Assembly: GCA_001787535.1 (NCBI GenBank)
Contig: MFXP01000002.1
Span: 86,578 to 143,775 of the forward strand
Source: Candidatus Peribacteria bacterium RIFCSPHIGHO2_01_FULL_51_35
Lineage (GTDB): Bacteria > Patescibacteriota > Gracilibacteria > Peribacterales > Peribacteraceae
Direction of reading: 5' to 3'
Length of the DNA stretch: 57,198 bases
The notes under the pieces were generated by a model. It saw nothing but the letters and a program-made list of their open reading frames with translations, was not told where the DNA came from and ran no database searches. Position numbers and translations under genes: made by a program. Within the stretch, counting starts at the first letter, position 1, and each line of letters begins with the position of its first letter. Positions 3,603 to 13,260 of the stretch are shown one piece after another.

Positions 3603-4592
3603 TCAGTAGTGCCGTCTCCCTGTGAGCATGATCGTGAGACCGGAGCCTGCAATAGTGCTTCCCACCTGATCGATGCTGACGCTCACGACTGTCCCCCCGG
3701 ATAGGTGCGTGAAAGCGAACGTTCCGTTCTTACTGTGCTTTGTATTCGCCACGATCCGCGGAGCCGTTGTGTAGATGCTTTGCCCATTCCGCGTGATATT
3801 GGCAATGACATCCGCCCCCGTCGGGGCGACGTTGATGCGGAGGCTCCCCGTGCTCACAGTCAGTCCGAACGGCATCGTGATGACCGCAGCTCCCGTGGCA
3901 GTCACGAACAAGGCGCCATCAATGAACCAGACCATGCTGGTCATGGGCTGTGCCCACTGCGGTGCGCTACCGGTGCGGGAAACGAGAATGCTGCCGGTCG
4001 TCGCGCTCTTCGACGCATTGAGATTGTATGTGTCAACAGCCGCCCCGCTCATAGTGCTGGAAACAGTGAGGTTTGCCTTTATCCGTGAGGCGGTGTTCAC
4101 GACAATACCGCCGGACGCGGTGATGTTCCCCGTTGCATGAAGATCATCGCTGAATTCGAAACGGTCTTCGAGATTCAAGAATTTCAAAGTTTCATTGGCG
4201 GTGTCACTCCCGAAGACAAGAACCGTGTCTCCGGCGGATTGATCGCTGTTGACCTTGAACGTCTCGGCTTTTATCGATCCCGTGCCGCTCACAATCAACG
4301 TGCCGGACGATGTAACGTTGCCTTCCACATGCACATCATCGGTAAATTGAAAAAGCGCCGATGCTCGATTCCAATAGACTTCCTCGCTAATGCTGCCTCC
4401 AAAGCGCAATTTTATGTCCGCAGTATCATTGGAATCGTCAATAATCTGGAAGGCCTCCGTATTCACCAGGAGTGTCGGGCTCCAGGAGCTTGCTGCAAAG
4501 GACGTGTCGACCCGCACCAGCGAGCAGAGAAAGAACAATACGATGACACTCGTTATAATGCGCAGCCTGCAGCTCTTTTTTTGTGTTTTCAC
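3603..4592 (-). CDS. Secreted tail-fibre-like repeat protein (paralogue A)
   Basis: This exported repeat protein has about 329 residues. The GTG at 4592 is preferred because a TGTTATAAT promoter element at 4614-4619 lies downstream of the ORF's first ATG (4637). The GTG start also gives a clean signal peptide: KTQKKSCRLR, then a hydrophobic stretch, then SFA. The body carries roughly 60-residue repeats of the type FGSDTANETLKFLNLEDRFE followed by DDLHATGNITASGG, shared with the two genes upstream. The C-terminal 90 residues (a TGADVIANITRNGQSIYT region ending in a GSTIAGSGLTIMLTG strand) resemble the C-terminal beta domains of phage tail fibres. It is likely a surface fibre or adhesin; its function is not established. 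Confidence 0.8.
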   Translation of the reverse strand: MKTQKKSCRLRIITSVIVLFFLCSLVRVDTSFAASSWSPTLLVNTEAFQIIDDSNDTADIKLRFGGSISEEVYWNRASALFQFTDDVHVEGNVTSSGTLIVSGTGSIKAETFKVNSDQSAGDTVLVFGSDTANETLKFLNLEDRFEFSDDLHATGNITASGGIVVNTASRIKANLTVSSTMSGAAVDTYNLNASKSATTGSILVSRTGSAPQWAQPMTSMVWFIDGALFVTATGAAVITMPFGLTVSTGSLRINVAPTGADVIANITRNGQSIYTTAPRIVANTKHSKNGTFAFTHLSGGTVVSVSIDQVGSTIAGSGLTIMLTGRRHY

Positions 4593-4613
4593 GGGTGTTG
4601 ATTGAATCCGTAT

Positions 4614-4619
4614 ATTATA
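4614..4619 (-). promoter_or_regulatory. -10 element of paralogue A
   Basis: On the minus strand this reads TG-T-TATAAT, a consensus extended -10 box. It lies inside the maximal ORF, so transcription would begin after the ORF's first ATG. That favours the GTG start at 4592. Confidence 0.6.
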
Positions 4620-4735
4620 ACAGAAAATTGCCTTCAAAGCCCCTCAGAGGGTTTGCGAGAACTGTAAATTAGTATGAAAATTCATCAAATACTGACCAAG
4701 AATGCAGATTTTGAACTACTTTCTCATACTCTCGA

Positions 4736-4993
4736 TTAGCTCAAGCTTTCTTGAATTCTTCGTAAGAGCGGAACCGAAATCGAACCACTTTTCTTTACGG
4801 ATGATTCTCGTTTTCGCGCTGCAAACTCAGAAATATATGCCTCATAATACGCTAAGCGAAATGGTGCATATGGCTTAGAAGAATCTACTTTCTTATCATT
4901 ATGATCTTTAAATCTTCTCCGCAAATCATTTGTGGAGCCCTTGTAGAAATATTTTGGATTCTTAAGGCTTTGTAATACATAGAAATACCACAT
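4736..4993 (-). CDS. GIY-YIG nuclease family protein (85 aa)
   Basis: This is a compact stand-alone GIY-YIG domain of the UPF0213/YhbQ type. WYFYVLQS at the N-terminus corresponds to the GIY strand and FYKGSTNDLRRRFKDH to the YIG strand plus the conserved Arg helix; a Glu is present in the later helix (AARKRESSVKKSG). The 85-residue length is normal for this class. The gene is more AT-rich than its neighbours and sits between a surface-protein gene and tRNA-Ser, which suggests acquisition by transfer. Proteins of this family are presumed DNA endonucleases, but the single-domain members are poorly characterised. The target is unknown. Confidence 0.85.
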   Translation of the reverse strand: MWYFYVLQSLKNPKYFYKGSTNDLRRRFKDHNDKKVDSSKPYAPFRLAYYEAYISEFAARKRESSVKKSGSISVPLLRRIQESLS

Positions 4994-5064: not shown

Positions 5065-5090
5065 GCCACGTCGCTCGCGAGCGACGTGGC
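5065..5090. repeat. 26-bp perfect palindrome overlapping the tRNA-Ser 3' end
   Basis: The half-site is GCCACGTCGCTCG followed by its exact complement, centred on TCGCGA. Its last four bases are also the CCA end and discriminator of tRNA-Ser. A partial copy (GTGGCGGTGCCACGTCG) lies at about 5023-5039. A palindrome with the same architecture lies near tRNA-Leu at 31577-31602. Confidence 0.85.
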
Positions 5091-5176
5091 GGAGAGGGAG
5101 GGATTCGAACCCCCGAGGCCCTTGCGGGCCTAACGGTTTTCAAGACCGTCGCCATAGACCACTCGGCCACCTCTCC
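5087..5176 (-). tRNA. tRNA-Ser (UGA)
   Basis: The 90-nt gene folds as a type II tRNA. The acceptor stem is GGAGAGG paired with CCTCTCC, followed by G and an encoded CCA. The anticodon loop CTTGAAA gives UGA, the long variable arm is a GGCCCGCAAGGGCC-type hairpin, and the T-loop GGTTCGAATCC is canonical. It would read UCA and related serine codons. Confidence 0.97.
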
Positions 5177-5282: not shown

Positions 5283-6746
5283 TTACTTCAAGTCGATGTT
5301 CAAGTTGATGAACGATGCATCCGCATACGCGCGGTCTGGCACCAGTGCGCCTGAGGAGACCATTTTTACCATGATGGTCATATAGCTGCCCGAGGCAAAT
5401 GTGCCGCTAACCTCCGGGCCCGTGATAGTCGCCGTCGTCCATGTGGTTGCCTTAAGATTTGTGTGGCCGGTGAGAGCAATATTGTTGTTGTTGGTATCCA
5501 ATGCTCTCACTTCCAGCCATGCACCGGATGCACGGTAGCGGAATTCAATGGGCTTGGCGGCCTCCCATCCTGTGAACTGCTCTGGAATGCGGACGCGCGA
5601 GACGATCCAGTACTGTTGGTTCGTGGTCCTCGTGCTTTGCCAACGATAGAAGTTTACCGCACTGCCGGAATCATAACGGAGCCCCAACGAGCCGACGGTT
5701 GCGGCACCACTGCTAACATACACGGCACCAGCATAATCCGGCGACAAAGAAATGGAACCGCTACTGCGGGAGTAAGACGTGCTTGTCGCATCGGTGCTCC
5801 ACGAGAGCTGACCTGCGCTGTTTGTTTTCAGCACTTTACCGGAAGCGGTACCATCGGAGAATGGGAACGTATACGTGACTCCATTCAACTTGAGAGTGGA
5901 TTTGAAGACGGCCGCACTATCGATAACGAGTCCGCCGGAAGAAAGGAGGTTACCTGTCGCCTTAAAATCATCATCTACTTCAAATCGGTCTTCTGCATTC
6001 AGGAACTTCAATGTCTGGTCCGCAGTGTCGGAGCCGAAGGTCAAGATGGCGTCTGCAGCACCGGAGTCGGAATTCAAGGTCAAATCACCCTTCACTTTGC
6101 CGAATCCACTGGCAATGAGGTTGCCGGAAGCCGTGAGGTTGCCGACGACGTTTGTATCGTCATCGAACTCGAAACGGTCTTCTGCATTCAGGAACTTGAA
6201 TGTCTGATCCGCTCCATCCGAACCGAAGGTAAGAACGGCATCCGCGGCGCCGGAGTCGGAGTTGATCGTGAGATCCGCCTTGGTCTTTACGTTACTGTCA
6301 ACCGTTAATGTGCCTGAGCCTGTGATGTTTCCTTCGCTATGAACATCATCCGTAAATTGGAAGCGCGCAGGCCCTCTGTTCCAGTAGACTTTCTCGTTCA
6401 CCGTGTCCCCAAAGCGGATTTCAATGTCCGTCGTGCTGTCTCCTTCATCGATGATCTGGAAGGATTCGGTGTTAACCAAGAGTGTCGGATCAAAACTGGA
6501 TGCAGCGCCCGTTTGTGGAAACGCCCATAGAAGGAGGGACGCGGCCACGGCCGTCGCGAGCATGCGCCTGCACAGTGCAAGCTTTGGGAAACGCCGTTGA
6601 AGGATGTTTGTTATGCGAATGGGAATGGATGTGTATTTCTTACTATTGTAGCTGATCTTCCTACTTTTTGCAATGCCCTTTCCCAGTAGGAATTCCTGGT
6701 GCATTGGCTGTTTCAGAGGGCTGTGGACTGGGCGTTTCGTTTCCAT
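5283..6746 (-). CDS. Secreted tail-fibre-like repeat protein (paralogue B)
   Basis: This protein has up to 487 residues. The hydrophobic export segment is near residues 62-82 (MLATAVAASLLLWAF, then QTGAAS), so the true start is probably well inside the ORF; a TACAAT element at 6645-6650 also lies inside it. After a TLLVNTESFQIIDEGDS opening shared with paralogue A, there are three repeats containing NSDSGAADAVLTFGSD and FKFLNAEDRFEFDDD, each followed by a GNLTASG turn. The C-terminal 150 residues (a RYDSGSAVNFYRWQSTR stretch through DTNNNNIALTGHT) match the C-terminal domain of the next gene upstream in position and sequence pattern. Such repeats suggest a fibrous beta structure. The role in adhesion is inferred. 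Confidence 0.82.
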   Translation of the reverse strand: METKRPVHSPLKQPMHQEFLLGKGIAKSRKISYNSKKYTSIPIRITNILQRRFPKLALCRRMLATAVAASLLLWAFPQTGAASSFDPTLLVNTESFQIIDEGDSTTDIEIRFGDTVNEKVYWNRGPARFQFTDDVHSEGNITGSGTLTVDSNVKTKADLTINSDSGAADAVLTFGSDGADQTFKFLNAEDRFEFDDDTNVVGNLTASGNLIASGFGKVKGDLTLNSDSGAADAILTFGSDTADQTLKFLNAEDRFEVDDDFKATGNLLSSGGLVIDSAAVFKSTLKLNGVTYTFPFSDGTASGKVLKTNSAGQLSWSTDATSTSYSRSSGSISLSPDYAGAVYVSSGAATVGSLGLRYDSGSAVNFYRWQSTRTTNQQYWIVSRVRIPEQFTGWEAAKPIEFRYRASGAWLEVRALDTNNNNIALTGHTNLKATTWTTATITGPEVSGTFASGSYMTIMVKMVSSGALVPDRAYADASFINLNIDLK

Positions 6747-6796: not shown

Positions 6797-9694
6797 TTAT
6801 TCCCTCGGCAGGTCAACGTATTTCAGCCGAACGCTGCCAAGCTGCATCTGGAAGTTATCTTTGGCATGGAGCTTGAATTTGATGAGGAATTCCTGACCCG
6901 CAGTCCATGTCGGCGATCCCCCGAAGTTCAGCGTCGTCGTTGCCCAACCGGTGCTTGCAAAGTCGGTGGAGTCTCCCGTGATGGTCACAGGACTGCCATT
7001 CGTGTCGAAGACGGAAATGTCCATCTGGTTGTCGGCAGTGCTGGCAGAGGTGGAACGGAAGCGCACCACAATGGATCCTGTGCCCCACCGCACAAATTCC
7101 GATGAGAGAGTCTCGCGAAGAATGACGTCGTAGTCCTGCAGCGTGCTGAGGGAGCTTGTCCAAATGTAGAAGTTATGGAGGTTGGTGTTGTCATGGTCCA
7201 CTCTCAATTGTCCGACATTGCTTGTCGCGTCTCCCTGATAGGAGACGTGCTCGAATTCCGCATGATAGTTACTTTCCACGGTCTGTTCGCGGTCATCGGA
7301 ACTCAGTTGGCGGCGGTCGACAAGCGATGTAATGGCGCTGCCGTTGGTCACGGCTTCCGCCAAGCGGATATGGCTGTTTTTGGTTGGGAATTCACCGGGT
7401 GTGACGATGAGCCCTGTGGACGTGAAGAAGATGTAATTGGTCGCACTTGCGCGAAGCGCCACACTTCCCGATCCACCGAAGTGCGTACCTGAACCGCTGA
7501 TGCGGTAGGGACCCGCGGCGACGCTCACCGTCAGCCCCGCACCGGATGTCGTCTTCAAGTGCGTGGTGGCGCTGTCCGTGAGGTCCTCAATATTGATGCC
7601 ATTGATGAGGCCGGTCACCGTCAGGTTTCCCTGGATGCGGAGGTCGTCATTGAAATCAAAGCGGTCATTCGCAATGTCAAACGTAAGCGTTTGGTTAAGC
7701 GTAGTGCCGAACCGGAGCGTGACAGTGTCGACCCCCGTGTTGTTTGCATCAAGGGTGAAGCGGTCTTGGTCCGTGCCGCTGGGAACCTGCGATGTGCCAA
7801 GCAAGCCGCCGCTCTGCAGGAACGGAATGGCACCGCTTCCCGTGCCCACGTCCCTGCGGTCGACCATGTCGGCATTGAGGGCGGAAGGAACGGAAAGCAC
7901 GGGGGAACGGTCGACCGTGGGGTCATCGGCATTCCGATCCAGAATTTCGTAGGACGTATCCGATGCACCACTCGCCTTCACTTCCACTTGCAGGAAGAGG
8001 CTTGTGAGCGTGCTCACGGGCATGCTGTCGATGGTCGGAAGGGCGGTGCCGCTGCCAAGCTGTACCGAGAAATATCCGTTGCTGTCCGGCGTCACCGTGA
8101 ATACTTCGAACCACTGCGCGTAATTGCTGGCACCCGTATTGATGGACCCCGTTGCCGTCACATCGCCGGAAACGTAGTCGGCGCTCTTCCAGTAACTGAA
8201 ACGCACAAGATGCGCGGTGCTAATGGCTGTTCCGTTGCTGCTCAACAGATGCCCGTTATACACATGCTTGAGCGGCGCAGTGGTAGCGGCCAGCGTGTGC
8301 GGCAGCGTCCATGCACTCGCACTGAGTACCAGCGCAAACACCAGGAAGGCGATGAGGATGCGGCTGCGGCGCAGTATGTTTTTGCGAATGGAGGTATGGC
8401 GATGGCGTTTGGTTTTAGAGGTGTGCCGTATGGCGCGGGAAGCCCGCAGGAATTGCAGAACTCCTCGGCTCGACATCTGTTGCATCAGGCGATAGACCGA
8501 AACAATGAGGACAGAGAGTCCGAGCAACATGAGCATCCGGCTGATGATTTGCCGTGCCAAAGAAATGGGTTGCTCTTCGAACATCAAGAATGTTGCCGCA
8601 GGGTGCTGGACATCTTTTCTCAGGATAAAGCGGCCGAAAGAAATCCTCTTGGGTGCCTGCGGAATACTGACAATTGGCATCGGCTCCGGTTCTTGCACCT
8701 GTGGTTTTCCAGGTGTTTCAAACTCAAATTCATCCGGGACTTCGAACCGAGGTGGCTCTTTGGGTAAAATAGGCAATGTCGGTTTTTTCGGAGCAGAAGG
8801 ATGTTTTATTTCTCCTTCATTCGTTCGATTTCCCCGATGGCCGCCCGAATCCGTCCCTGCTCCACCGGCGGGTTCCGGTTCCACATCAGAATCGCCTGCC
8901 GCTGTTGCAGGCGGAGCAGAAACAATTTGGAAACTTGTGCTGGAAAGCGGCGCTTGATACCACGTCACATCGTTTTCATTCATGCGATAGCTGGTCGATG
9001 TCTGCGCTTGACCCGCTGCGTCGTTCGGGAATGACTCGTACAATGTGAACGAGGCGCTTTCCAGAGCGTAGGCCGGTTCAACGGAAAGCATCCATCCTGC
9101 AGCCGCGAACGCAACCAGAAGCAGAGCAGCCAGAGAGCCCGGGGGCGAAGGATTCTTGGACGAAGAGCCGCCGCCCTGTTCCTCGGTGGAATTGGGTGGC
9201 TGCACCTGGATTTGATGCTTCGGCGACGTTTCATTGTCTTGCAACTTATGCCGATGGGAAACCGTATCGGCGTAGTAAAAGCGCTCACGTTGAATGACGC
9301 GGCCAATGGTCGAACTCGATATTCTAATCCCGTGCGTATGCTCAAGTTCCAATTGTATCTTCTCTTTTCCCATCAGTGGGAATTTCGTTCGGTACTCTTT
9401 GATTAACCCAATAATGTGCGGCTCCACGTCCGACTCACGCACCGTGTGCGGACGGTGCGATTGTTCTTCGAGTGTGGAAAGGTCATTCGGGTCAAATCGT
9501 TTCAACCAGCGCCGAAACGTGGATTCGGAAATCCCAAACTGTTTGCCCACCGCCTTGGGGTCATTCCCATTCTCCAATGCAAAAAGAAACCACTGCAGCC
9601 GCTGCTGTGCCTGTGGGCTCAGGTTGGCACCCCCGGCTCGCTGGAGGAGTTGCTCTCTTGTCACCCGTTGCGAATTGAAATCCGGAGAACGCAC
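6797..9694 (-). CDS. Transposase-type HTH fused to membrane-spanning tail-fibre-like protein (paralogue C)
   Basis: This protein has 965 residues with a GTG start. Residues 15-140 match the DNA-binding half of IS481/IS3-type transposases: a first HTH with GKQFGISESTFRRWLKRF (50-67), then a second helical unit ending in ISSSTIGRVIQRERF. No DDE catalytic domain follows. A membrane segment lies at 187-207 and a STSFQIV module at 210-260, followed by a Pro/Glu-rich linker. A second membrane segment lies at 386-402, then a very basic stretch (RHTSKTKRHRHTSIRK), and a third membrane segment at 446-468. The remaining 500 residues are exported beta repeats like paralogues A and B, including NQTLTFDIANDRFDFNDDL. 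The fusion is continuous in one frame. It may be a domesticated DNA-binding domain in a membrane-anchored regulator, or an old gene fusion. Confidence 0.85.
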   Translation of the reverse strand: MRSPDFNSQRVTREQLLQRAGGANLSPQAQQRLQWFLFALENGNDPKAVGKQFGISESTFRRWLKRFDPNDLSTLEEQSHRPHTVRESDVEPHIIGLIKEYRTKFPLMGKEKIQLELEHTHGIRISSSTIGRVIQRERFYYADTVSHRHKLQDNETSPKHQIQVQPPNSTEEQGGGSSSKNPSPPGSLAALLLVAFAAAGWMLSVEPAYALESASFTLYESFPNDAAGQAQTSTSYRMNENDVTWYQAPLSSTSFQIVSAPPATAAGDSDVEPEPAGGAGTDSGGHRGNRTNEGEIKHPSAPKKPTLPILPKEPPRFEVPDEFEFETPGKPQVQEPEPMPIVSIPQAPKRISFGRFILRKDVQHPAATFLMFEEQPISLARQIISRMLMLLGLSVLIVSVYRLMQQMSSRGVLQFLRASRAIRHTSKTKRHRHTSIRKNILRRSRILIAFLVFALVLSASAWTLPHTLAATTAPLKHVYNGHLLSSNGTAISTAHLVRFSYWKSADYVSGDVTATGSINTGASNYAQWFEVFTVTPDSNGYFSVQLGSGTALPTIDSMPVSTLTSLFLQVEVKASGASDTSYEILDRNADDPTVDRSPVLSVPSALNADMVDRRDVGTGSGAIPFLQSGGLLGTSQVPSGTDQDRFTLDANNTGVDTVTLRFGTTLNQTLTFDIANDRFDFNDDLRIQGNLTVTGLINGINIEDLTDSATTHLKTTSGAGLTVSVAAGPYRISGSGTHFGGSGSVALRASATNYIFFTSTGLIVTPGEFPTKNSHIRLAEAVTNGSAITSLVDRRQLSSDDREQTVESNYHAEFEHVSYQGDATSNVGQLRVDHDNTNLHNFYIWTSSLSTLQDYDVILRETLSSEFVRWGTGSIVVRFRSTSASTADNQMDISVFDTNGSPVTITGDSTDFASTGWATTTLNFGGSPTWTAGQEFLIKFKLHAKDNFQMQLGSVRLKYVDLPRE

Positions 9695-10339
9695 AGGAGG
9701 TTGAAGTGGATGTTTGTGTAGGAGTTAATTAACTATTGACTATTGTACCTTAAAATCAGGTTCTTTACAAGATCTATCTGAACCCGCGGAGCCACCCGAT
9801 CTCCTCAAGCTCACTGAACCTGCAGAACTCCCTGATCTATCCGATCTCTCCGGGCTTCTTCGCATACGCGCCATATCCGCATAAAAGACGCGACCGGGCG
9901 AGGACTGTCTGGCCTACCGCATCCTGCAGATCATTCGGAGCTTCGTGATCATATGAGACCTGCAGATCCCGCAGATCTTTCTGATCTTTTGACATAAGCA
10001 CCGGTGTGCCTTCTCACAATCCTTCTCCAAAGCAATTTGTGTACGCATAGCTCCGTCCATGATTGCCTAAAAGGCAATTCCTATGAGGCACCAATCTTGG
10101 TTGGCGTGGGTAGGCTCGCTCTGCATTGTTTTTCTTGCAATAGGATCCTCATAACGAATGCAACACAAGATGAACTTATCCAGAGAACTTTCAAAACTAT
10201 TGCCCTACCAACTTCAAGCATTAAGACTGCACGAAAAAAATCGTAACGGCTTTGCGCTTTCTGCTCTCTGCTTTATGCTTTAACGTTTGCTTTTTGGCTC
10301 GCTCTGATACAATAAGATCCTCCATTCCCGTCCGTTGCC
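9695..10339. other. 645-bp spacer with 9-bp-period tracts and a small hairpin
   Basis: I see no convincing gene here. Minus-strand tracts at 9768-9853 and 9918-9990 show a rough 9-nt period (units such as GATCTGCGG, GATCTGCAG, GATAGATCA). A perfect hairpin, ATTGCCT-AAA-AGGCAAT, lies at 10062-10078. A TACAAT box for the minus-strand gene lies at 9742-9747, next to a TTAATTAA palindrome. The right end carries repeat copy A (10211-10282) and a TACAAT box near 10307 that could serve the SLH gene. Confidence 0.6.
10211..10282 (+). repeat. AAGACTGCACGAAAAAA / CTGCTCTCTGC repeat, copy A
   Basis: About 70 bp align closely with 13190-13260. Shared blocks include AAGACTGCACGAAAAAA, TCGTAA and TTTCTGCTCTCTGCTTTATG. 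In both copies the ACGA...TCGT segment can pair as a short hairpin, and its length and flanking bases vary between copies. Confidence 0.75.
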
Positions 10340-11377
10340 ATGATGCATGTACAAAAGCTAGGTCTCGCCGCTTTCGCTGCAGTCTGCATATTGAGCTATG
10401 CCGCACCCGCCTATGCACAAACTCCTTCATTTCAGGATGTGCCGCCGAAGCACCTGGCATTTGAAGCTGTGGAATACCTGAAACAACAGGGCATTATTGC
10501 GGGATATGCAGATGGCACATTCCGCCCCGACCAAAAGGTGAACAGGGCGGAAGCCGTAAAGATCCTCATCGCACCACTCGCGACTCCTCAGCAACTCGGC
10601 CAATTTGGCCCGACGACCGTGTACCAAGACATTCCATCCGGTGCATGGTATTTGCCATATGTGGAGGCGGCTCGGCAAGCATTTGGCATCGTCGACGGTC
10701 CTCCAAAAAAATCCATGTTCTACGGAGAACGAAATATCCAGAAAGCGGAGTTTTTAAAGATGCTTCTTATCGCAAACAAGGCCGATGCAGGCGCCTTCGG
10801 TGAAATCCGTTTGCCTCTCGCAACCGATGTAGCGAATCCCGATGAGTGGTATTACCCCTATATGCGTTACGCAATCTCTTCCTCACTGACGCTTGTCACG
10901 CAAAACGGTCTTTTGTCCCCCGGACGCGAACTGACTCGAGGAGACGTCGCACTCTTCATGCACCGCTATGCGATGTACAAAGAAGGCCGCCGCACGCAAG
11001 CGCTGCTGGATGAAGCGGAAACGGAGATCCATAACATCCTGTCTTCCCTTGACCTCAACGACATCGATCAAGCGGAATATGCCTCCGTCCGCAGCTTGCT
11101 GGCAGCGCGAGGCGCCCATGCCAGCAGGCCTGATGAAAGCATTGTGAAAGCGGCTGTCAAAACAACGGAAAGCTTCCGAGCCCTTGTTCGTGCATATCGC
11201 AGCGGCGTGAGCGGAGACTTGGATAACGTGATCACTCTTGCAGGGGAAGCCTGGAACTTGGCGGAACAGGCCAAAAAATTAGATATGGGGCTTGCGACGC
11301 TTGCAGATCAAGTGCAAGCAACCGCCAAGAACATGGCGGACAGCGCTCGTGCATTGAAGGCTGGAGGACAACCCTAG
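10340..11377 (+). CDS. S-layer homology (SLH) domain protein
   Basis: This exported protein has 345 residues with a signal peptide ending AYAQ near residue 26. Three SLH domains follow: FQDVPPKHLAFEAVEYL with GIIAGYADGTFRPDQKVNRA; a second starting VYQDIPSGAWYLPYVEAA and containing KAEFLKMLL; and a third with ATDVANPDEWYYPYMRYA and LTRGDVALFMHRYA. SLH triplets bind pyruvylated secondary cell-wall polymers in other bacteria. The C-terminal 130 residues are predicted helical and Ala-rich (SARALKAGGQP at the end) with no known domain. It probably anchors to the cell surface. It stands alone, between the periodic spacer and a hairpin repeat. Confidence 0.9.
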   Translation: MMHVQKLGLAAFAAVCILSYAAPAYAQTPSFQDVPPKHLAFEAVEYLKQQGIIAGYADGTFRPDQKVNRAEAVKILIAPLATPQQLGQFGPTTVYQDIPSGAWYLPYVEAARQAFGIVDGPPKKSMFYGERNIQKAEFLKMLLIANKADAGAFGEIRLPLATDVANPDEWYYPYMRYAISSSLTLVTQNGLLSPGRELTRGDVALFMHRYAMYKEGRRTQALLDEAETEIHNILSSLDLNDIDQAEYASVRSLLAARGAHASRPDESIVKAAVKTTESFRALVRAYRSGVSGDLDNVITLAGEAWNLAEQAKKLDMGLATLADQVQATAKNMADSARALKAGGQP

Positions 11378-11888: not shown

Positions 11889-13225
11889 TCATGATCTTCA
11901 AAAAATTCTTTAAGCAACACAGCCTTGTGCGGTTGCTCTGGCATCGCTTGAAAGCAGACCTTGCTGCGTTATCGTACGGGTTTCCCGCGCGGAAATTGAC
12001 CGTCATCGGCATTACCGGCACAGACGGAAAAACGACGACCGTCGGCATGATCGTACATATTTTGAACGAATGCGGAATCCAAGCAGGTGCCCTCTCCACG
12101 GCGTTCTTCCAAGCCAAGGATCAGATTACATTCAATGCAACGCAGAAAACGTCGCCCTCGCCGTTCGCCATTCAAAAATTTCTGGCAGAACTCGTAAAAC
12201 ACGGATGCACCCATGCGGTCATCGAATGCTCCTCGCACGGACTTATTCAGGGCAGATTGAATCACACATATCCTCTGGTCGCGGGCATCACGAATATTTC
12301 GGAAGAGCACTTGGATTACCACGGAACGATGGACGAATATATTCGTGCAAAGGCTTTGCTTTTCCGAATGCTGCGGAAAAACGGAACAAAAGTCTTGAAT
12401 AGGGATGATCGGTCTTTTGCCTACCTCCGTACAGTTCCGACAAAGAATAGTGCCATCTATTCGCCTGCCCATCAATTGAAGGATGTGCGAGGAACATCTG
12501 CATCATGCAGAGCCGTTGCACACATCGATGGCACAGACCATGAACTTGCATTGTCCATTCCCGGCATCTTCAACCTGAACAATGCTCTCTGCGCCATTTG
12601 CTGCACCGTCGGCATTTTCGATCTGTCTCTTGAGCAGGCACTGCAGGCCTTGCAGCGCTACAAAGGCGTTCCGGGGCGGATGGAAAAAATTGATTGCGGA
12701 CAACCTTTTGATGTCTACGTAGATTTCACGGTCACGCCGCAAGCGTACCAAGCAACACTCACCGCACTTCGATCGACATTGCCGCATGGAAAGCGCCTTC
12801 TGACGCTCACCGGAAGTTGCGGAGACCGCATGCGCGAGAAGCGTCCCATGGTGGGGAAAATTTGCAGTGAACTCTCCGATGTCGTGGTGGTGACGAATGA
12901 AGATCCATACACGGAGGATCCGCAAAAAATCATTGACGAAGTTTGGGCAGGCGTTGATCAAAACAAAACGGAAGCGCACAAGATCTTCGACCGACGCGAT
13001 GCGATCAAATTCATCTTTTCAAAAGCACAGCCCGGTGATGCCGTCATCCTCTGCGCCAAAGGAAGCGACACGACAATGTGGACGGCGGAAGGACAAATTC
13101 CATGGAATGAACGCGAAATCGCTCGAGAACTTTTAAAGCAAATAGCGCAGAGCAGAGAGCAAAAAGCAAATGATGGAAATACCTTACTGACTTCAATCAT
13201 GAAGACTGCACGAAAAAATTCGTAA
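11885..13225 (+). CDS. MurE-like Mur ligase lacking the first domain
   Basis: This ATP-dependent amide ligase has 446 residues and the MurE pattern: GITGTDGKTTT (P-loop), ECSSHGL, HLDYHGTMDEYIRAKALLF with the Lys that is carbamylated in the family, and GRMEKIDCGQPFDVYVDF. The C-terminal domain carries LTGSCGDRMREKRP and NEDPYTEDP where the DNPR-type motif for the third amino acid lies. Only about 37 residues precede the P-loop, so the UMP-binding first domain of canonical MurE is missing. VDFTVTPQA also differs from the usual VDYAHTP. The last 29 residues, ending SIMKTARKNS, are encoded by the dispersed repeat at 13136-13225. It probably adds an amino acid to a peptidoglycan precursor; the substrate is uncertain. 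Confidence 0.83.
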   Translation: MIMIFKKFFKQHSLVRLLWHRLKADLAALSYGFPARKLTVIGITGTDGKTTTVGMIVHILNECGIQAGALSTAFFQAKDQITFNATQKTSPSPFAIQKFLAELVKHGCTHAVIECSSHGLIQGRLNHTYPLVAGITNISEEHLDYHGTMDEYIRAKALLFRMLRKNGTKVLNRDDRSFAYLRTVPTKNSAIYSPAHQLKDVRGTSASCRAVAHIDGTDHELALSIPGIFNLNNALCAICCTVGIFDLSLEQALQALQRYKGVPGRMEKIDCGQPFDVYVDFTVTPQAYQATLTALRSTLPHGKRLLTLTGSCGDRMREKRPMVGKICSELSDVVVVTNEDPYTEDPQKIIDEVWAGVDQNKTEAHKIFDRRDAIKFIFSKAQPGDAVILCAKGSDTTMWTAEGQIPWNEREIARELLKQIAQSREQKANDGNTLLTSIMKTARKNS

Positions 13226-13260
13226 GTGCTCTGCATTTTCTGCTCTCTGCTTTATGCTTA
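13190..13260 (+). repeat. AAGACTGCACGAAAAAA / CTGCTCTCTGC repeat, copy B
   Basis: This is the second copy of the 10211-10282 repeat. It overlaps the 3' end of the Mur ligase gene, whose TAA stop lies inside it, and reaches the start codon of rnhB. An inverse AGCAGAGAGC segment lies at about 13151-13160, so a hairpin is possible. Confidence 0.75.

Follow-up and report, generated by a model that had tools for sequence, protein, structure and literature searches.

Why should a gene for a surface fibre begin with a DNA-binding domain? The question is raised by a single open frame of 965 aa in the window, by which we mean the whole 57,198-nucleotide stretch of Candidatus Peribacteria DNA analysed here. 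Peribacteria are tiny and uncultured. In this frame an HTH head of transposase type is followed by three hydrophobic segments and a long exported fibre of host-gripping type. No description of such an HTH–fibre fusion was found in the part of the literature that our search covered. The head very probably binds the promoter of its own gene, and this points to a membrane-tethered switch that controls itself and is produced along with the fibre it governs. The parts, in window coordinates, are as follows.

6797–9694, minus: HTH–TM–fibre fusion gene, 965 aa, GTG start
9236–9694, minus: bipartite paired-like DNA-binding domain, aa 1–153, IS481/IS630-type, transposase-derived
9137–9235, minus: polar cytoplasmic linker, aa 154–186, conserved less than the HTH
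9065–9136, minus: TM1, signal-peptide-like segment, aa 187–210, with AYA at its end; signal peptidase I predicted to cut after Ala210
8555–9064, minus: exported B region, aa 211–380, with an SFTLYESF motif and then a Pro-rich stalk
8480–8548, minus: TM2, aa 383–405, from hydropathy
8360–8479, minus: basic cytoplasmic loop, aa 406–445, K/R-rich
8288–8359, minus: TM3, signal-peptide-like segment, aa 446–469, with an HTLA/A end; second predicted cleavage site
7799–8287, minus: conserved fibre head D, aa 470–632, weakly like the N-terminal domain of Bdellovibrio MAT
7595–7777, minus: beta repeat common to the neighbouring fibres, aa 640–700
7304–7561, minus: module resembling the tail fibre of cyanophage A-1(L) (8kec), aa 712–797, by sequence profile and structure
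6809–7291, minus: jelly-roll tip, aa 802–962, with a fold like that of carbohydrate-binding modules
9742–9770, minus: promoter-like TTGTAA-N17-TACAAT, directly 5' of the HTH frame, 48 bp before the GTG
9771–9989, minus (the gene's strand): operator-like array of AAAGATCA sites, at 9771, 9834/9843, 9920/9929 and 9965/9974
5283–6746, minus: downstream fibre gene, sharing repeats and the tip domain with 6797–9694
3603–4637, minus: further fibre gene, sharing repeats with 6797–9694
10340–11377, plus: divergent SLH-like gene (SLH from reading of the sequence), a conserved neighbour in many genomes

The DNA-binding head

Residues 27–153 of the window protein match HTH_23, HTH_28 and HTH_32 above the Pfam cut-offs, and two HTH units lie there, at approximately aa 27–76 and 92–153. 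The match to the IS481 transposase model covers positions 1–108 of 284 only, so the protein is without the DDE domain, as the preliminary description of this locus had proposed. An AlphaFold model of the HTH part (pLDDT 84) has two HTH units, and its best structural neighbours are TnsB, the paired domains of Pax5 and Pax6, and Tc3. With Foldseek E-values above 0.02 and Z scores of 7.2 or less, the paired-like transposase fold is a resemblance, not a proof, but it is credible because the HTH sequence also matches transposases.

Three known families bear comparison. IS481 transposases have the N-terminal HTH in common with the window protein, but carry the DDE integrase core that it lacks. TnsB (Tn7/CAST) has a related bipartite fold and multiple binding sites near its own gene, which in the window's case are predicted ones; TnsB also autoregulates Tn7 genes. 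It differs in that transposase activity is not possible for the window protein. The Pax paired domain, thought to derive from a Tc1-type transposase, is alike in its bipartite fold (Z 7.2) and in having been turned from transposition to regulation, whereas Pax proteins are eukaryotic and soluble, and were domesticated independently.

The HTH is under purifying selection. Its dN/dS lies between 0.09 and 0.20 in most close pairs with usable dS, and is 0.215 in one, while that of the adjoining linker is as a rule higher; the HTH core is among the invariant residues. Intact IS481-like transposases are present elsewhere in the family. The clean cut before the DDE domain, conservation across the family, purifying selection and the intact relatives together support the earlier suggestion that the head is a piece of transposase domesticated for another role. 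We rejected the idea of a still-active mobile element, since there are one to three copies per genome, no DDE domain, and an occurrence in nearly one family only; no element ends were found. One genome (G265) has nine matches, among them many near-identical open frames of 92–93 aa that match the end of the IS481 model and are perhaps a multiplied transposase fragment.

The fibre

Approximately 500 residues of exported beta structure follow the third hydrophobic segment, and the repeats in them recur, as described earlier, in the two neighbouring genes at 5283–6746 and 3603–4637. The single-chain model of this part is weaker than that of the head (pLDDT 68, pTM 0.39), but several modules can be recognized. 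Residues 712–797 resemble the tail fibre of cyanophage A-1(L) both in sequence profile (E 4e-6) and in structure (8kec: Z 10.4, rmsd 2.1, 80 residues aligned, 26% identity). The tip, aa 802–962, resembles both CBM4-2 (Z 12.0) and the tip of the phage K2-2 tailspike (Z 10.6), and, going by this modelled fold, presumably binds a glycan.

Bdellovibrio builds mosaic adhesive trimer (MAT) fibres, phage-tail-like chimeras with beta-sandwich tips that serve in prey recognition (PMC10769870). Fibre head D resembles the MAT N-terminal family (NF053851) weakly: 14 of 22 homologues match, the best at 2.5e-5, below the cut-off, and the window member at 0.017. The MAT fibre is a trimeric beta-helix with an adhesive tip; the window protein has a tail-fibre module and a CBM-like tip. 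No DNA-binding head has been described in the Bdellovibrio fibres.

Within the fibre gene cluster, the window also has a tRNA-Ser gene (TGA anticodon, 5087–5176), followed by a short ORF of GIY-YIG-type appearance.

Fused and split loci

A profile of the HTH, searched in 74 genomes of the window's family (Ca. Peribacteria), found 45 loci in 35 of them, one to three per genome; homologues do not consistently lack the HTH. Outside the family, weaker matches occur in six genomes of the class, and the relatives recovered with the fibre head belong to Candidatus Peribacteria/Peribacteraceae. We read the surroundings of all 45 loci. In 25, HTH and exported fibre share one frame: the HTH is joined either to a fibre with head D, as in the window (11 loci), or via one TM segment to other fibre repeats (14 loci). 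In the other 20 it is a separate gene, encoding an HTH-TM protein in 11 loci and a soluble HTH in nine. The window's order of domains in one frame recurs in G005, G008, G018 and other genomes.

Downstream of each of the 20 separate HTH genes, and in the same orientation, an exported gene of the cluster overlaps it or begins after a gap of 2 bp or less, if start codons are allowed to shift; for the soluble forms, in nine genomes, the two genes overlap by 1–4 bp or lie 2 bp apart. The B region, part of the long frame in the window, is a separate SP-B-TM gene in split genomes. The exported gene tied to the HTH is a recognised fibre or B gene in 43 of the 45 loci. The two exceptions, at loci L050 and L066 from the same genus, are very large ORFs of 2464+ and 3066 aa, each in a 4-bp overlap with a separate HTH gene; they have a hydrophobic start, and our profiles detected no fibre domain in them.

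In the tree, fused forms are intermixed with split ones, and fusion and fission have therefore probably occurred more than once, which argues for a functional link between HTH and fibre. The HTH is optional as a module at the window's own locus, which in other genomes carries the fibre genes but no HTH. The window's genome encodes a second HTH-TM gene just outside the window, of 188 aa, that overlaps a fibre gene by 37 bp (G000:C2:82031-83631, or L031:5032-6632).

Operator-like sites

The promoter-like sequence lies upstream of the GTG, and the HTH part is thus within the transcript, which bears on the earlier proviso that the true start might be found downstream of the HTH. Translation may nonetheless begin at TTG Leu151 or GTG Val164, just before TM1, and this counts against reading the protein as an autoregulator.

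Upstream of the promoter lies the array listed above. For the window's clade the motif AAAGATCAGAAACATC was suggested by reading the upstream regions, and the seeds of the matrices were picked by eye from these same upstreams; the matrices were then trained without the genus tested. Sites resembling AAAGATCAGAAACATC number 45 on the gene's strand, against 2 on the opposite strand and 3.05 in shuffles. Arrays accompany all 19 HTH-bearing loci compared, with only a single site among 19 orthologous loci that lack the HTH; within the 130 bp nearest the promoter the counts are 14 of 19 and 0 of 19. Successive sites are 64–77 bp apart in 20 of 46 intervals (null expectation, 3.3), and long arrays, all on one strand, extend up to ~850 bp upstream. 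Three sites of the window's own array are left under the matrix trained without its genus. Clade II has few sites.

The phasing in clade I is unusual: in upstreams such as L043, L081 and L077 sites recur at 67–76 bp, and a 69-105-69 pattern occurs in two genera. Four related genera have 9-bp periodic repeats of AGATC type within the operator region (L033, L037, L071 and window 9770–9990).

Some candidates did not survive. The strict pattern AAAGNTCANNNAMAT was abandoned as a specific marker when, in a search of 22 genomes, it turned up also in ones without a clade I HTH; arrays alone are informative, and single sites are not, for this reason. A site at 4894 is probably due to chance and is inside apparent coding sequence. 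The repeat at 10203–10280 was dropped as an operator on finding it elsewhere in the genome; it and 13182–13259 are copies, 86% identical, of a 78-bp intergenic repeat, shorter pieces of which occur on contigs C4 and C12.

In the sister clade a palindrome, TGTNNCGNNACA, lies beside the -10. Dyads upstream of its HTH genes were counted with no prior motif, and the best occur in 12–13 of 22 upstreams against 4–5 of 275 control upstreams (p ~1e-16; the best of matched control sets, ~3e-4). The motif, TGTAGCGCTACA-like, sits next to the -10 and precedes the start codon; often there is another copy 90–180 bp upstream. Exact copies of the palindrome number 33 in 638 kb, and 19 of these lie in upstreams that total ~6 kb. 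The second HTH-TM gene of the window's genome also has a palindromic operator-like sequence, TGTTGCGCGACA, at G000:C2:83665.

A regulatory role for the HTH is supported, at the level of sequence, because operator-like arrays accompany the HTH and are absent without it, and because the sister clade has its palindrome.

Membrane segments and predicted cleavage

Hydropathy places three segments in the window protein, at approximately aa 187–205, 383–401 and 446–464, in agreement with the three membrane crossings first described, and the positive-inside pattern fits a course of N-in, out, in, out. Whether the genes are fused or split, A-x-A motifs are found exactly where TM1 meets B and where TM3 meets head D; in the sister clade they are found where TM meets fibre. 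All of the fused proteins examined have them, and nearly all of the split ones, in which the motif ends an ordinary signal peptide. The window protein has the A-x-A box of signal peptidase I substrates at both places (AYA/L and HTLA/A); by reading of the sequence, TM2 (aa 383–405) contains no such motif. The window's genome encodes a type I signal peptidase (LepB-type), and M50 proteases. Since the motifs are at the first and third hydrophobic segments, the mature product is likely not one continuous chain, and cutting would probably leave a membrane-anchored HTH without its fibre. One point counts against cleavage: a long N-terminal extension before a signal peptide can also produce an uncleaved signal anchor. 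Read most simply, fused and split genes give rise to identical products but for the HTH, which in the fused case retains TM1.

An Asn in mid-TM is kept in 22 of 25 HTH-TM proteins, fused or split. This exceeds what a plain signal peptide needs, and dimerization of the TM segments is a likely reason. For the fused and HTH-TM forms, membrane binding of the HTH is thus likely. Nine split genomes, however, have a soluble HTH, and its function therefore does not depend on tethering. The membrane-bound regulator first envisaged for this gene accordingly stands in part: operator-like arrays, the palindrome and the TM Asn speak for it, and the soluble forms against its generality.

A probable tethered autoregulator, and the alternatives

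On balance we think it probable that the domesticated transposase domain is an autogenous regulator of its own fibre gene cluster, tethered to the membrane after cleavage of a polyprotein. The HTH would bind the operator array that immediately precedes its own promoter, and would be made together with the fibre, as one polyprotein in the window and from overlapping genes elsewhere. In the fused form, export would be begun by the first signal-peptide-like segment, and signal peptidase I would most likely cut twice, behind AYA (aa 210) and behind the third segment (approximately aa 469). Three products would result: the HTH, held by TM1 at the inner face of the membrane; a membrane hairpin bearing the B region; and the fibre, with its CBM-like, presumably glycan-binding tip. 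Regulator output would in this way be coupled one-to-one to fibre export, and tethering would keep the regulator at the membrane. In the sister clade, where the site is between the -10 and the start codon, binding likely represses; at the window gene, where the sites are upstream of the -35, it possibly activates.

The 965-aa chain might instead remain whole and act as a transmembrane sensor of ToxR or MyRF type, its tip binding a host surface and the signal passing to the HTH. A single frame with N-in topology, a CBM-like tip on a tail-fibre module and the conserved TM Asn would all suit such a sensor, and surface sensing by the fibre was part of the preliminary description. The A-x-A motifs at both junctions, in fused and split forms, suggest rather that the fibre is cut off, and in split genomes HTH and fibre are separate chains from the start; we regard the sensor as unlikely. 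ToxR-like receptors (ToxR, CadC, TcpP, PsaE) do have an N-terminal cytoplasmic DNA-binding domain, a TM segment and an extracytoplasmic part, and PsaE controls a fimbria (PMC8407435, PMC5430869). The window protein is like them in this order, but its domain is paired-like and transposase-derived (HTH_23/28/32 and IS481 matches) where theirs is an OmpR-type winged HTH, and it has three hydrophobic segments where they have one TM, as the split HTH-TM proteins also do. Unlike these receptors, it has signal-peptide-like TM segments, A-x-A sites and a fibre in frame. ToxR-like receptors regulate transcription in response to an outside signal; what the window protein has to set beside this is operator-like sites. 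MyRF is a eukaryotic membrane-bound factor with a DNA-binding domain, a phage-fibre-type domain and a TM segment in one precursor, which is cut. That combination is the likeness; the DNA-binding fold and the domain order are different, and MyRF relies on S74 autoproteolysis. MyRF has been named as S74-containing (PMC10769870), and no S74 family is among the matches of the window protein in general Pfam, NCBIfam and PHROGs scans.

The HTH could also be a plain autoregulator of soluble type, joined to the fibre by loss of a stop; cutting by signal peptidase would make the fusion tolerable, and the tethering would have no function. The nine genomes with soluble HTH and the intermixing of forms in the tree agree with this, but 36 of the 45 loci, in many genera, have retained fusion or a TM segment of the HTH's own, and the conserved Asn suggests that the membrane segment is under selection. 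We regard this reading, too, as unlikely.

More adventurous is a form of transertion, in which the nascent HTH, translated first, binds its own operator array in cis during translation and export of the remaining chain, and so pins gene, polysome and translocon together at the membrane. The HTH is always N-terminal, or encoded by the first gene; the arrays are long and on one strand, reaching ~850 bp upstream at a spacing of ~70 bp; and membrane capture of a target locus has a precedent in VtrA/VtrC (PMC9977878). The scarcity of sites in clade II and the existence of soluble forms tell against it, and we consider it improbable. Were it true, the fibre would be made and assembled at one membrane spot by a built-in transertion device that combines the head of a transposase with a phage-like fibre.

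Chance, a decaying transposase remnant or an assembly artefact we give almost no weight: intact IS481-like transposases do occur in the family, but conservation across many genera, low dN/dS, coupling at 45 of 45 loci and the operators speak against all three, and family-wide conservation with dN/dS rules out a chance fusion or pseudogene.

Significance

Little is known about fibre control in the ultrasmall, probably host-dependent Patescibacteria, which may use their fibres to grip other cells. Regulator, likely operator and fibre here form one heritable unit that has been fused and split repeatedly across genera, with a predicted DNA site and predicted cleavage sites explicit enough for laboratory testing. 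In the head of this unit, a transposase DNA-binding domain would have become a regulator, which parallels in bacteria the way in which Pax proteins arose.
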